A stretch of 64,000 nucleotides of DNA, taken from positions 62,001 through 126,000 of the forward strand of contig JAGXFW010000014.1 of NCBI GenBank assembly GCA_024637035.1, given 5' to 3'. The translations under genes were made by a program, and so were the position numbers. The notes beneath the pieces were generated by a model. It saw nothing but the letters and a program-made list of their open reading frames with translations. It was not told the DNA's origin and searched no databases. Positions 1,731 through 7,738 of the stretch are shown here, one piece after another. Every line of letters begins with the position of its first letter. Position 1 is the stretch's first letter. The stretch is from Actinomycetes bacterium (GTDB lineage: Bacteria > Actinomycetota > Thermoleophilia > RBG-16-64-13).

Positions 1731-3242
1731 GTGGTGGCCAACTACGCGGGCACCATCAGCATCCTGCTCATGGCTTTCTTCCTGACTCCGTTCCTGGTGA
1801 GCAGGTTGGGGAACGTGCAGTTCGGCCTCTGGGCGATCATCGGTGGCGTGATGGCCTACGGCAGCCTATTCGACCTCGGCGTATCCGCCGCCGTGGTCAA
1901 GTACGTAGGAGAGCACTCCGACCTCGACGACGTGCCCGGCGTGGAGAAGGTGATCCAGAGTTCGTTGGCCGTCTACCTCGCGATCGGAGCCGCCGTGCTC
2001 GTCTTCACGGGCGTGGCAAGCGTCCTCGTCCCGCTGATCTTCCCCATCCCCCCCGAGCTGGTGGGAACCTCGGTGACGCTCGTGTTGATCAGCGGCGGGT
2101 CCTTGGCACTGAACTTCCCGCTCGGCATGTACAACGGTGTGCTGCTCGGGCTTCAGCGTCACCACGTGGCCGGCGCGGCCGAGATCCTCTGGGGTGTGGG
2201 GACCACCGTCGGCGCCGTGGTGGTGGTATCCGCCGGCGGTGGCCTCATCGGTCTCGCGCTCGTATACCTTGCCGGCAACACGCTCGCACAGATGATCCGG
2301 ATCGCCTATCTCATCATCAAGCACCCCGAGGTGCGATGGCTCAGGGTGCGGTTCGATAGATCGACGAGCAGCAAGATCTTCAATTTCAGCTTCTGGGCGT
2401 TCCTGCTGCGTTTCGCCAGTACTCTCCGCTCGCGCACCGACGAGATCGTGGTAGGAGCTTCCCTCTCGGTGGCCGCGGTGACTCCCTACTTCGTCGGCCT
2501 GCGCCTAAGCGACGCGCTCGGGCGCCTCACAAGCCAAGTCTCAGCCGCTCTGTTCCCCTATGGGTCGCGACTGGACGCCTTGGAGGACCGTGAAGGTCTT
2601 CGGCACATGTACATCACGGCCACACGGGCGAACCTCGCCATCGCCATGCCGATGGCGCTCTTCCTGTGGATCCAGGCCCCACGGTTCATCGAGGCATGGA
2701 TGGGGCCCGGCTTCGGTCAAAGCACACTCACGGCCCGCCTACTGATCGCGGCGGTGATGTGCCAGGTCTATGTGGCACTGGGACACACGTTCCTCAAGAG
2801 CATCAACCGCCATCAGGCGATCGCTGCTTGGAGCATGGCGGAGGTGCTCGCCAATCTCGCCCTGAGCCTGATACTGGTCAGGTCGTACGGGCTCGCCGGC
2901 GTCGCGATCGGGACTCTCGTCCCGGCGGTAGTCTACAACCTCGGGTTCGTGCTGCCCCATGCCAGCCGCCGGCTCGGGGTGCGATTGAGCATCCTACTGA
3001 GGCGAACCGTGGTGCCCCAGGTGCCGGCGCTGACGGCCTCGGCCATCGTCATGCTCATCGCCGCCTACCTTCCGGGAGACCCTGGGCTCCTGCGGTTGAT
3101 CGGGGAAGCGGCCACGGCCGGGCTCACCTACTGGGCCGTCTACTACCTCGCCGGATCGGGACCCGAGGAGCGGGCCCTCGTCCGCCGGGTATCTGGCAGG
3201 CTGATACGGGTCCGGGCGGCTCCACCGTCGGAGGAAGGCTAG
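1731..3242 (+). CDS. Wzx-type polysaccharide flippase (MOP superfamily)
   Basis: This is a 503-aa integral membrane protein with about 12-14 hydrophobic segments, of the polysaccharide_synt / MatE-like type. Such proteins flip undecaprenyl-linked repeat units across the membrane. The N-terminus (VVANYAGTISILLMAF) and the FDLGVSAAVVKYV segment are characteristic. The GTG at 1731 lacks a good Shine-Dalgarno and the in-frame sequence stays open back to a CTG at 1671, so the start is uncertain. Its TAG stop shares the palindrome CTAG (3239-3242) with the stop of the convergent kinase gene. Confidence 0.88.
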   Translation: MVANYAGTISILLMAFFLTPFLVSRLGNVQFGLWAIIGGVMAYGSLFDLGVSAAVVKYVGEHSDLDDVPGVEKVIQSSLAVYLAIGAAVLVFTGVASVLVPLIFPIPPELVGTSVTLVLISGGSLALNFPLGMYNGVLLGLQRHHVAGAAEILWGVGTTVGAVVVVSAGGGLIGLALVYLAGNTLAQMIRIAYLIIKHPEVRWLRVRFDRSTSSKIFNFSFWAFLLRFASTLRSRTDEIVVGASLSVAAVTPYFVGLRLSDALGRLTSQVSAALFPYGSRLDALEDREGLRHMYITATRANLAIAMPMALFLWIQAPRFIEAWMGPGFGQSTLTARLLIAAVMCQVYVALGHTFLKSINRHQAIAAWSMAEVLANLALSLILVRSYGLAGVAIGTLVPAVVYNLGFVLPHASRRLGVRLSILLRRTVVPQVPALTASAIVMLIAAYLPGDPGLLRLIGEAATAGLTYWAVYYLAGSGPEERALVRRVSGRLIRVRAAPPSEEG

Positions 3243-3916
3243 GAAGTACGGCCGTAGCTCGCGTACTGGAAATACGCCGAGGGGCCCGTGGCCTTGTTCA
3301 CCACGATGCCCAACAGTTTCCCCTGCACCTTCCGTAGCGCATCGACTGTCCGACGCAGTTCCCGCCGCTTGGTCTGCCTCATGTTGGCGACAACGATGAT
3401 CCCATCTACCATCGTCGCCAAGATCGAGGCGTCGGCGACCGCGAGCACGGGGGGCGAATCGATGATGGTGAGGGCGAACGTCTCGCCGAGCGCCAAGATC
3501 ACATCGTTCATACGTGACGAGGCGATGAGATCGGCGCTGGACGGTGGTGTGGGGCCACTCGGCAACACCATGAGGCCGCTCGTGGCGGTCTCGAGGAGCG
3601 GCTTAGCGGGCGCCCGCTCGGGCGACACCAACAGCGTGCTGAGGCCCGCGTACCTGCCCAGCTTGAAATGGCGCGTCACGGCCTGCTTGCGCATGTCGCC
3701 GTCGATCAACGCCACTCGCTTGCCCCCGGCCGCGGAAAAATGGGCGAGGTTCACCGCAACGGTGCTCTTGCCGCAGCCCTCCGTAGGCCCGGTGATCAGG
3801 ATGGTGCGTACCGGCTCGCCTTTTCCCGCGAACGCGATGTTGGTGCGCAGCGCCATGTAGGACTCGGCGGCGGACGAGTTCGGCGGGGCGAGGATCAGTC
3901 GCGAAGAGCTCTTCAT
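3239..3916 (-). CDS. CpsD/CapB-type BY-kinase (exopolysaccharide regulator)
   Basis: This 225-aa cytoplasmic P-loop kinase controls polysaccharide chain length together with a Wzz-like membrane partner. Walker A is GPTEGCGKST (residues 43-52), Walker A' is ALIDGDMRK (69-77), and Walker B is IIDSPP. The tail SAYFQYASYGRTS carries three tyrosines, a short version of the autophosphorylated tyrosine cluster. Its ATG overlaps the stop of the upstream Wzz-like gene by 4 bp, which gives the Gram-positive arrangement of separate membrane adaptor and kinase. Confidence 0.9.
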   Translation of the reverse strand: MKSSSRLILAPPNSSAAESYMALRTNIAFAGKGEPVRTILITGPTEGCGKSTVAVNLAHFSAAGGKRVALIDGDMRKQAVTRHFKLGRYAGLSTLLVSPERAPAKPLLETATSGLMVLPSGPTPPSSADLIASSRMNDVILALGETFALTIIDSPPVLAVADASILATMVDGIIVVANMRQTKRRELRRTVDALRKVQGKLLGIVVNKATGPSAYFQYASYGRTS

Positions 3917-4596
3917 CGCGTTCCTTCCGGTCCAGCGTGCATGACGGGGATCACCCCGAGGATGGGGAGGCCGGTCATGGCCTCCAATTCGTCGTTGTCC
4001 ACGATGTGGTCTTGGAAGAAGTCGATCACAAGGGCGAATCCCACGCCGAGAAGCACGCCACCCGTGAGGGCGGCCAAGAGCACGATGACCGACCCTGGAC
4101 CCGCGGGCCCTGCGGGCGGAACGGCCGGATCGACGATGAGCAAGCGCTCCACCTGAACCCCGCGACTCACCTCGTCGACGTACGCTTGCAGGGTGACAGC
4201 GGTGGCATTCGAGAGCCGCGCCGCCTCAGCGGGGTCGCCGCTCACCGCCCGGATCCTGAGCAGATCAAGACTCTCCACTTGCTCAGCGGAGAGGGCCGCA
4301 AGCACGGACTCAGGCGAATAGTCCCCGCCCATCCGCTCGGCCACGCGGCCGGCCAGTGCCCGAGTGGTCACGATGCGCGCGTAGGTCTGCGCCAACCGCT
4401 GCGAAACGGAGAGGGCTGCCAAGGCTTCCCCGATGTCGGTGGAACTCCTGTCCACGCGCACGAGCGTCTCGGCTTCATACGAGGGAGGAGTCGTGTAGGC
4501 GAAGTACCCAGCCGCCCCGACCGCCAACACCGCCATGAACACCACGAGGTACTTATGGCGCCAGACGATACGAATCAGATCTCGGACACTCAGCAT
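3913..4596 (-). CDS. Wzz/YveK-type chain-length determinant, kinase adaptor
   Basis: This 227-aa membrane protein has one transmembrane helix near the N-terminus (about residues 14-32) and a second near the C-terminus (about 168-192). The extracytoplasmic loop between them carries the family sequence YEAETLVRVD. This is the Wzz topology of polysaccharide co-polymerases, which set polymer length and activate the cognate BY-kinase. A proline/glycine-rich stretch (VPPAGPAGPG) precedes the second helix, as is usual. It is coupled to the kinase gene by a 4-bp overlap. Confidence 0.88.
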   Translation of the reverse strand: MLSVRDLIRIVWRHKYLVVFMAVLAVGAAGYFAYTTPPSYEAETLVRVDRSSTDIGEALAALSVSQRLAQTYARIVTTRALAGRVAERMGGDYSPESVLAALSAEQVESLDLLRIRAVSGDPAEAARLSNATAVTLQAYVDEVSRGVQVERLLIVDPAVPPAGPAGPGSVIVLLAALTGGVLLGVGFALVIDFFQDHIVDNDELEAMTGLPILGVIPVMHAGPEGTR

Positions 4597-4639: not shown

Positions 4640-6133
4640 TCACTCGGCTGCCACGCCTCGGAGGTCGCGATATACCTGCTGGAACGTCAGCAGGACGATC
4701 CTCAGATCGAGCCAGGGAGACCAGTTCTCGATGTAGTAGTTGTCGTATTCGACACGCTCGGCCAATGACCCTTGGTTGCCCTTGAGGTCATGCACCTGCG
4801 CCCAACCCGTCATGCCGGCCTTCACGCGCATGCGGTCGCCGTACCGATAGATATCGTGCACGAAACGATTCACAAAGAACGGTCGCTCGGGGCGGGGGCC
4901 GACGAGACTCATCTCCCCCTTGAGCACGTTGAGCAACTGGGGCAACTCGTCGAGACTGCTCTTCCGCAGGATCTTGCCGACCCCAGTGATGTAGCTGGCG
5001 CCCGCGGCCGCCTCAACGGCATCCGACCACATAGCGCCGCCCTCCTGAGCCTCGGCCCCCACGGTAAGAGAGCGGAACTTGATCATCTGAAAGAGCTTCC
5101 CGTCACGACCGGAGCGCTCCTGGCGGTAGAAGACCGGCCCCGGGGAACCAAGCTTCACCATCACGGCGGCCGCCAACAACAGCGGCGACGACACGAACAG
5201 CAGGAACGCCGAACCCACCACATCGACCAGCCTCTTGGTCCACCACAGGCCCCCCGAGAGCCGTATCGGCTGGATCCCGACGACCGGTATGCCACGTAGG
5301 CGCTCGAACGGGGCCGGCTTCGCTATCGTCTCGAACAAGCGGGGGACCACGGCGAGCGCGACACCCTTCTCCTGGCAGGTGGTAACGATGCGAAGCAGCA
5401 CCTCGTGGGGAGCCGTGGAGAAGGCGACCACGACCATCTTCACATCGAACTCATAGATCAATCGGGCAAGATCGCGGCTATGACCGAGCACGGGCAGGCC
5501 CTGGCGCTCGCCCAACGGGGTGAGCGGGTCCTTGTCGATGAAACCGATGGGTTGGAGCCCGAGTTCGGGATGCCCCGTGAGACGCCGCGCGATCAAGGAA
5601 CCGATGTGGCCCGCGCCGACGATCAGGGCGGTGCGCAGGCCGTGACCGCGGCGACGCAAGCCGCGCTGAACGGCTCTCAGGATGGATCGTTCCAAGATCA
5701 GCCCGGCGGGCATGACCCCGGCGATCGCCGCGAACACCAGAACGTCCGTCGTGAGACCGAGCACCGACGCGAGAAAGAAACCCACTACCGGCGGCAGCAA
5801 GGAGGCCATCAGGACTCTGGGTATCTCGTCGAGAGCCGAGAGCTGCATCCCTACCGACCACAGACGGAGCCGCCAGAGCATGATGATCGCAGCAACCGCG
5901 ATTGCGGCGAGGGTCACGACTCCCGACCATGGCGCTGCTGCCGACCACTGCCACACCCCCACCGCAGATGCAACAAGGCCGACGGTCAAACCGTCGGCCA
6001 CGGCGACTGCGCCCTTGGAAAGGACAAGTTCTGCCAGCGTTGCCCGACGAGTGCGGGTGACGTTGATCTCGAGTACTGCGTCTCGCTCGGATTGCCCGCG
6101 CGCTGAGTCTATGGCTTCCACATACCGCGGCAT
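4640..6133 (-). CDS. undecaprenyl-phosphate sugar phosphotransferase (WbaP/WcaJ-like)
   Basis: This 497-aa polyprenol-phosphate hexose-1-phosphate transferase starts repeat-unit synthesis. It has four or five N-terminal membrane helices, then a Rossmann-like CoA_binding_3 domain (VGAGHIGSLIARRL), then a re-entrant helix and the bacterial sugar transferase domain. That domain shows KRLVDVVGSAFLL, KFRSL, SSLDELPQLLNVLKGEMSLVGPRP and the C-terminal GMTGWAQV. All expected catalytic landmarks are present. It lies just upstream of the Wzz and kinase genes (44-bp gap), so this minus-strand group is one operon. Confidence 0.92.
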   Translation of the reverse strand: MPRYVEAIDSARGQSERDAVLEINVTRTRRATLAELVLSKGAVAVADGLTVGLVASAVGVWQWSAAAPWSGVVTLAAIAVAAIIMLWRLRLWSVGMQLSALDEIPRVLMASLLPPVVGFFLASVLGLTTDVLVFAAIAGVMPAGLILERSILRAVQRGLRRRGHGLRTALIVGAGHIGSLIARRLTGHPELGLQPIGFIDKDPLTPLGERQGLPVLGHSRDLARLIYEFDVKMVVVAFSTAPHEVLLRIVTTCQEKGVALAVVPRLFETIAKPAPFERLRGIPVVGIQPIRLSGGLWWTKRLVDVVGSAFLLFVSSPLLLAAAVMVKLGSPGPVFYRQERSGRDGKLFQMIKFRSLTVGAEAQEGGAMWSDAVEAAAGASYITGVGKILRKSSLDELPQLLNVLKGEMSLVGPRPERPFFVNRFVHDIYRYGDRMRVKAGMTGWAQVHDLKGNQGSLAERVEYDNYYIENWSPWLDLRIVLLTFQQVYRDLRGVAAE

Positions 6134-6377
6134 CAGTTCATCTCCCGAGCGGCTCTCCCGTGCCTACAGCTCATTGTTATCCACTATCGGCTGCTACCCT
6201 GCTTTTCTTTACCCAGACCCAAATAGTGAAAACTCCCTCATCCCACACCGGGAAGTACCTTGGCCTTCGAGGTCCACTTCCAGCAGACCTCGACATCTGC
6301 ATCATAACTGACATCGATTGTGCCGCGCCAGTCGCCAGACGCTGGCATTTGCTAGGCGACCCTGCTATTTTGTTCGC
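6134..6377. promoter_or_regulatory. divergent intergenic region between glycan operon and BldD-like gene
   Basis: These 244 bp separate the leftward glycan operon from the rightward BldD-like gene and are more A+T-rich than their surroundings. They should hold both promoters. I cannot assign clear -35/-10 boxes or a BldD-type operator by eye. Confidence 0.4.
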
Positions 6378-6890
6378 ATGCGCGAGAACGATGAACTCCA
6401 AGAGGACAAAGAAGTCCGAGAGCACCGCTATGCCGAGCTGGTGGGCGAGAAACTCCGGAGACTCCGCCAAGACCGAGGCATGAGTCTGCAGGAGGTCTGC
6501 GACCGATCGGGTGGCTCGTTCGTCGTCTCCACTCTCAGTGCGTACGAGCGGGGAAAACGTAGTGTGAGCCTCGAACGGTTGCTTGAGCTATCCGACATAT
6601 ATGGTCTTTCCCCCACCTCTCTCCTTGAGCTTGATGACGAAGGCGAGTTCCAGGGCCATCTCGGCAGGAACCGCCCGCTGCGCATCCGCGTGGAGCATCT
6701 TGACCGCCTGTCTGAGGCCGAGCGTCGCCCGCTTGAGAATTACCTGCAGTTCCTTCGGAATCTCCGGAACGATCCCGCGCTGGAGATCCTGACCATCCGC
6801 AAGGATGATCTCACGTACCTCTCGTCGCTGTACGGGGTGAGGCCACAGGCCCTCACGGAGCGGCTGAAGGCGGAAGGCATCCTCGACTGA
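6378..6890 (+). CDS. BldD-like transcriptional regulator with putative c-di-GMP signature
   Basis: This 170-aa protein has an N-terminal XRE-type helix-turn-helix (about residues 18-80: LRRLRQDRGMSLQEV, STLSAYERGKRSV, YGLSPTSLL) closely resembling Streptomyces BldD, plus a C-terminal domain. That domain contains R130-N-D132, eight residues, then R141-K-D-D144, which fits the RxD-x8-RxxD signature by which BldD binds c-di-GMP. The start is the ATG at 6378. It sits divergently beside the exopolysaccharide operon, so c-di-GMP control of glycan production is a reasonable inference. Confidence 0.82.
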   Translation: MRENDELQEDKEVREHRYAELVGEKLRRLRQDRGMSLQEVCDRSGGSFVVSTLSAYERGKRSVSLERLLELSDIYGLSPTSLLELDDEGEFQGHLGRNRPLRIRVEHLDRLSEAERRPLENYLQFLRNLRNDPALEILTIRKDDLTYLSSLYGVRPQALTERLKAEGILD

Positions 6891-6907: not shown

Positions 6908-7738
6908 CTATGGCGTGAGCAGGATGGGTATCGGTATCTCCCTCATCAGCTGCTCAGTCGTGCTGCCCAGGATCAGGCGCCGAAGCAGCGAGTGACCCTG
7001 CATTCCCATCACGACGAGGTCCGCGGGCTCTCCCTCCAGATGACCCAAAGCAGCCATCACCGGCTCCCCCTGGGCCAGAATGAAGCCGGGATCCAGCTCG
7101 AAGGCCGAAAGGTACGACCGAGCACCCTCCTGGATCTCCGCAGCTTCGTGCTCATCCTCTCCCACGGTGAGAACCCGAAGAGACGATCCGAGATGCGAAG
7201 CGAGATCTGCGGCGAACTTGAGTGCATGCGTGCCCGCCGGACTGCCGTCGAACAGGAGCAGCATCCGCTCGAACGGACCCGCTTCTTGTTCGGCCAGGAG
7301 CACGGGCGACGCGGACCGACGTATCACCGCCTCAGTCGTGGAGCCGAGCAGATCCTTACCCCACTTCGCATGCTCTCCCCGCTTGCCCAGGACGATGAGG
7401 TCATGGGTGGCACCCAGATCCGAGATCGTCTCCGCCGGGATGCCTTCTTCGAGCCGGCATTCGACCTTGACTCCCCGCCCGTCCAAGCTGCGCCGGAACT
7501 CCTCGAGCACGCGCTCGCCCTTCTCCCGAAAGCCCTCCAAGATCTCTGTGGGCATCGGGATGAGGGGGATGCCCTCGTAGGAGTACTCGAGATAGGGTGG
7601 CATCTCCAGGAGACGCACGTCGAGCACGTACAGACCGACCACTCGCGCGCCGTATCGCGCGGCCATCTGCACGGCGTGCTCGCGCGCCGCAGCAGCGGGT
7701 GCTGACGCGTCCACCGCGACCAGAATCGACTTGATCAT
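6908..7738 (-). CDS. tandem universal stress protein (two UspA domains)
   Basis: This 276-aa cytoplasmic protein has two UspA folds. The first (about residues 1-148) ends with GKRGEHAKWGKDLLGSTTE and the second (about 155-276) with GMQGHSLLRRLILGSTTE. Both match the G-x2-G-x9-G-(S/T) ATP-binding pattern, so both domains may bind nucleotide. It is a single gene, convergent with the BldD-like gene. The strong Shine-Dalgarno GGAGGTGCTGG precedes the ATG at 7738. Confidence 0.92.
   Translation of the reverse strand: MIKSILVAVDASAPAAAAREHAVQMAARYGARVVGLYVLDVRLLEMPPYLEYSYEGIPLIPMPTEILEGFREKGERVLEEFRRSLDGRGVKVECRLEEGIPAETISDLGATHDLIVLGKRGEHAKWGKDLLGSTTEAVIRRSASPVLLAEQEAGPFERMLLLFDGSPAGTHALKFAADLASHLGSSLRVLTVGEDEHEAAEIQEGARSYLSAFELDPGFILAQGEPVMAALGHLEGEPADLVVMGMQGHSLLRRLILGSTTEQLMREIPIPILLTP

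Follow-up and report, generated by a model that had tools for sequence, protein, structure and literature searches.

The locus described here raises the question of whether a BldD-like regulator carrying a cyclic-di-GMP (c-di-GMP) signature controls the polysaccharide genes at its left, or whether the two are neighbours only by circumstance. The gene occupies positions 6378-6890 (forward strand) of a 64 000-nucleotide stretch of an actinobacterial contig (JAGXFW010000014.1, assembly GCA_024637035.1), which is called the window throughout. An earlier note, made from the letters alone, had read the arrangement as c-di-GMP control of glycan genes. The part of that reading which stood is the BldD membership of both domains, together with a probable response to c-di-GMP; direct control of the adjacent operon did not stand.

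The gene product is a distant relative of BldD

The open reading frame encodes 170 amino acids from an ATG (the coordinates include the stop codon), as judged from the ORF list, the sequence and Pfam matches to HTH_3 and BldD-like_C. An XRE-type helix-turn-helix (HTH) DNA-binding domain (residues 23-83, positions 6444-6626, forward strand; Pfam HTH_3/HTH_31) is followed by a BldD-type C-terminal domain (CTD), the putative c-di-GMP-binding part (residues 100-170, positions 6675-6887, forward strand; PF21179). The match to BldD-like_C was clear (E = 3.9e-12; score 46.3 bits, cut-off 27). Among PDB entries, the top phmmer matches were the BldD DNA-binding domain 2ewt (E = 3.3e-11) and structures of the BldD CTD (E about 1e-6 to 1e-5, with 5khd and 4oay at about 1e-6). 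The HTH is 41% identical to the BldD DNA-binding domain over 68 positions, and in the AlphaFold model it fits BldD structure 4ob4 to 1.3 Å; both the 2ewt and the 4ob4 match uphold the earlier proposal of a BldD-like HTH. The modelled CTD superimposes on the BldD CTD-c-di-GMP structures 4oaz, 5khd and 5tzf with an rmsd of 1.1-1.4 Å over about 71 columns. For the full-length model the pTM was low (0.52), which reflects the unfixed placement of the two domains relative to each other.

Over its full length the protein is 34% identical to Streptomyces BldD. At this level the gene falls short of a strict positional orthologue, defined by high identity plus synteny with Streptomyces bldD (PMC4255298). 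The window gene lies beside trp/usp genes, whereas at another locus (L072) nusB-like and pyrR-like genes, identified by eye, adjoin bldD. In two-domain architecture and fold, the protein is a genuine but distant BldD relative.

BldD-type proteins are widespread in Actinomycetota

The PF21179 gene is single-copy in the window genome and was found in 17 of the 18 genomes of its taxonomic family, whereas the 81 genomes sampled from the remaining families of its class all lacked it. An even draw over Actinomycetota yielded it in 115 of 396 genomes (29%); the carriers comprise many families with genomes of 1.4-6 Mb, plus genomes of 6-10 Mb whose BldD is essentially Streptomyces-like. Copy number also varies: families f17 and f70 (e.g. 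L080, L084 and L091) have up to 3-5 BldD-type paralogues per genome, compared with one in the window's family. The single family genome lacking a BldD-like_C match (G008, 98% complete) carries 8 GGDEF domains and Wzz genes, and either loss or an assembly gap could account for this. In a maximum-likelihood tree the family homologues grouped together (100/98 support) at the end of a long stem; the deeper position of the group is unsure because of long-branch effects.

Chater and Chandra (2013; PMC4255298) described an Acidimicrobium orthologue of bldD and proposed that very early actinobacteria already had the gene, with many losses since. When the full-text literature was searched for BldD-like proteins from further lineages, only that paper and work on Streptomyces or Saccharopolyspora came up. 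Given the Acidimicrobium orthologue and the breadth of the phylum sample, the occurrence of such a protein 'outside the sporulating actinobacteria' is not new.

The c-di-GMP signature is kept while flanking contacts are replaced

The segment RND-x8-RKDD (positions 6765-6809, forward strand) aligned residue for residue with the BldD signature: R130-N-D132-x8-R141-KD-D144 corresponds to R114-G-D116-x8-R125-QD-D128 of BldD. The alignment confirmed the RxD-x8-RxxD motif proposed earlier, down to its coordinates and residue numbers. In BldD this bipartite signature is needed for c-di-GMP binding, and mutating the quartet abolishes binding (PMC4151990). All 17 homologues of the family have R130, D132, R141 and D144, four of the 29 CTD positions (out of 71) that show no variation there; R130, R141 and D144 are also invariant in a phylum-wide alignment of 48 sequences. 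Because the motif sits in a homologous domain, is family-invariant and keeps three of its four residues across these 48 sequences, it is more than a chance match. BldD-type proteins of other Actinomycetota (f9, f17, f29, f46 and others) share the same domains and keep the R114, R125 and D128 equivalents throughout the sample and D116 in most. Five of them (L092, L094, L095, L103 and L109) have glutamate in place of D116 in the first half of the motif, a naturally occurring departure from the c-di-GMP signature.

We also compared the further BldD contacts described in PMC4151990 (K/R84, I110, N118, S123 and R130, all in BldD numbering), which are non-defining and vary in other lineages too. The family does not keep this set. 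K84 is replaced by P, N118 by A, S, G or T, and R130 (BldD numbering) by T, N, A or E in all 17 homologues, while I110 and S123 are conservatively exchanged for L and T respectively; threonine at the latter position is also used in many other lineages. Most other BldD-type proteins of Actinomycetota differ from the window's family in keeping N118 and either K/R84 or R130. Since three contacts are replaced in every homologue, affinity or stoichiometry may differ from those of BldD. R102 of the window protein is invariant in the family; that it stands in for the lost K84 is a guess.

These replacements speak for a BldD-like fold with altered binding, be it a dimer of c-di-GMP only, another nucleotide or constitutive DNA binding. 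Three of nine BldD contact positions have changed throughout the family, among them N118, a residue retained by most other lineages, and the branch to the family is long. Yet the quartet essential in BldD (PMC4151990) is family-invariant, the threonine at S123 is common elsewhere, and every family genome encodes GGDEF proteins. On balance we regard altered binding as unlikely, although it fares better than the other alternatives considered below.

A putative c-di-GMP output in a genome rich in GGDEF domains

The window genome (G000) has an uneven c-di-GMP gene set: 17 GGDEF domains against one EAL domain (L029-L045, L112 and L113 are the loci cited for the set), and no PilZ domain. Two MshEN domains are also present. 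GGDEF domains occur in 18/18 family genomes. A BldD-type protein is a plausible transcriptional output of c-di-GMP in the window genome, as far as gene content can tell. From the 17 GGDEF domains and the one EAL domain we infer that c-di-GMP-driven dimerisation is the best mechanism to propose.

By this mechanism, intercalated c-di-GMP, gripped by the R130/D132 and R141/D144 motifs, would link the CTDs of two monomers. The link would place both HTH domains on a single pseudo-palindromic operator; at high c-di-GMP the complex would repress, or otherwise control, genes at other sites of the genome. Of this picture, the window protein itself displays the domain architecture, the fold and the signature, and the rest (ligand, dimerisation, DNA binding, targets) is carried over from BldD.

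The polysaccharide genes adjoin bldD only within one genus

Divergent from bldD lies a polyprenyl-phosphate sugar transferase gene of the Bac_transf type (4640-6133, reverse strand; PF02397, E = 2e-61), related to bldD by adjacency only. Further left are genes for a Wzz chain-length determinant (3913-4596, reverse strand; PF02706), likewise a neighbour only, a BY-kinase-like ATPase, a flippase, a DegT aminotransferase and a nucleotidyl transferase; the earlier note was thus right that polysaccharide genes adjoin the regulator. Wzz and the BY-kinase-like ATPase are separate adjacent genes (3239-4596), and no clear tyrosine cluster is seen at the end of the ATPase, which reads YFQYASYGRTS. To the right, a universal stress protein gene (usp; 6908-7738, reverse strand) follows bldD.

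Comparison across the family separated the two flanks. The same-genus genome G001 keeps the exopolysaccharide-bldD arrangement, and in G012 a 159-aa stretch with sugar-transferase similarity lies left of bldD at the contig edge, where the view of the operon ends. Elsewhere in the family, usable contigs carry on that side either a PfkA-like gene or several degradative enzymes in a row (identities by eye from sequence). The right flank is kept: usp lies within 6 kb of bldD in 15/17 family genomes, and trpG lies farther right in 12/17, some contigs ending before it. Wzz genes occur in 14/18 family genomes, G008 included, but only the window's genus, with its two genomes, has one next to bldD. Adjacency does not support regulation of exopolysaccharide genes, because the neighbourhood of bldD is not kept across the family.

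The divergent region lacks a recognizable operator

Between the divergent genes lie 244 bp (6134-6377), which we searched for the Streptomyces form of the BldD box, TNAC(N5)GTNA; this form may not be the operator of the window protein. No box within one mismatch was found in this region, which includes the gene's own promoter, and even the closest match to a more stringent form of the box departed from it at two positions. Nor does 6134-6377 contain a palindrome common to the upstream regions of the family. Widely shared upstream dyads were rejected as operator candidates, as they derive from a putative tRNA-Leu gene; this gene, as read from sequence, lies upstream of bldD in several relatives (L054, L055, L056, L057 and L058).

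When the divergent regions of the window, G001 and G012 were aligned, clear conservation was confined to the genus. There, an 18-bp inverted repeat, CCAGTC-N6-GACTGG, precedes bldD in G001. We rejected it as an operator because it is perfect in G001, imperfect in the window and absent elsewhere in the family.

The recognition-helix region offers a possible reason for the missing box, reading VVSTLSAYERGKRS in the window protein and KAVVVGSYERGDRA in BldD. The stretch FVVSTLSAYERGKRS of this region, for which the BldD counterpart is WKAVVVGSYERGDRA, is nearly invariant in the family. Because this region differs from that of BldD and is near-invariant among its own relatives, the operator is probably unlike the Streptomyces box, and the missing box does not exclude DNA binding.

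Immediately before the gene we noted a promoter-like block, GGCATT-N16-TATTTT (6344-6371, forward strand), with a -35-like GGCATT at 6344-6349 and an extended -10, TGC-TATTTT, at 6363-6371. Most family homologues have a comparable block, approximately GTAGATTT-N15/16-TGCTAcaaT, at a fixed distance from the start codon and a few bases before the ATG. The -35 element is unusual, reading TAGATT in nine relatives and GGCATT in the window. A bipartite TRGATT-N17-TGCTA block was not enriched in the window. The position of the block directly 5' of the ATG suggests that the bldD mRNA is leaderless. As the promoter-like -10 ends 6 bases before ATG 6378, this start is preferred over the upstream TTG at 6318.

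Direct, c-di-GMP-responsive control of the divergent exopolysaccharide operon would be compatible with a BldD-family regulator acting through c-di-GMP. The divergent layout with its shared 244-bp region, its retention in G001, the sugar-transferase-like fragment in G012 and the CCAGTC repeat of the genus all point that way. Exopolysaccharide control is a common c-di-GMP output in bacteria. Against it stand the PfkA-like or degradative genes on that side in other family members, the Wzz genes that adjoin bldD in the window's genus only, the missing box and a repeat unseen elsewhere in the family. Neither linkage beyond the genus (the G012 fragment apart) nor a shared operator emerged, so that direct control of the glycan operon, as originally suggested, is not borne out, and we consider it improbable. 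The polysaccharide operon is probably an incidental neighbour of bldD in the window's genus.

A variant of this idea is that a BldD peculiar to the family, its c-di-GMP site remodelled and its operator new, was rewired to surface polysaccharide in the window's genus, giving direct glycan control in a non-developmental actinobacterium; the quartet would be kept, the three flanking contacts replaced, and invariant R102 would possibly compensate. We give this little credence. It is similarly doubtful that the protein regulates locally, either the trp/usp side or just its own gene: the trp/usp genes are its conserved neighbours and many XRE regulators are autoregulated, but no palindrome is conserved upstream of bldD, and these neighbours lie on the opposite strand, converging on bldD, so that no promoter region is common to both.

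Discussion

Our preferred explanation is that the window gene encodes a divergent BldD-family transcription factor that probably still responds to c-di-GMP, and we hold this with good, though not full, confidence. The left neighbours, which change from genus to genus next to a conserved trp/usp side, and the location of Wzz genes elsewhere in other family genomes speak for it. Weighing against it are the K84, N118 and R130 contacts (BldD numbering) lost in 17/17 homologues, the low identity to Streptomyces BldD, the lack of an operator and the existence of G008, with GGDEF proteins but without BldD.

Like BldD of Streptomyces coelicolor and S. venezuelae (2ewt, 4ob4, 4oaz, 4oay and 5khd; PMC4151990), the window protein has the HTH-then-CTD order, both folds and RxD-x8-RxxD at the same positions, and its host genome encodes diguanylate cyclases. 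It departs from Streptomyces BldD in sequence (34% identity), in the replaced contacts and in its recognition-helix region, and its gene lies beside trp/usp genes with no BldD box at its own promoter. Some other lineages have several BldD-type paralogues per genome, unlike the window's family with its one. A parallel is offered by RsiG-WhiG of Rubrobacter, another transcriptional switch worked by c-di-GMP that was discovered through Streptomyces development; non-sporulating actinobacteria have it too, and there it controls a different function (PMC8325347); RsiG, however, is an anti-sigma factor of unrelated fold and motif.

As to targets, the position of a regulator gene beside exopolysaccharide genes in a single genome does not count as evidence that it controls them. 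The host lineage is an uncultured actinobacterial family, and its BldD is a divergent addition to a known protein family. If the window protein binds c-di-GMP, it would show which BldD contacts are dispensable and would provide a distant relative for studying the evolution of the c-di-GMP-bridged dimer, and biosensors based on the BldD CTD (PMC11082216) could gain a variant of different affinity.
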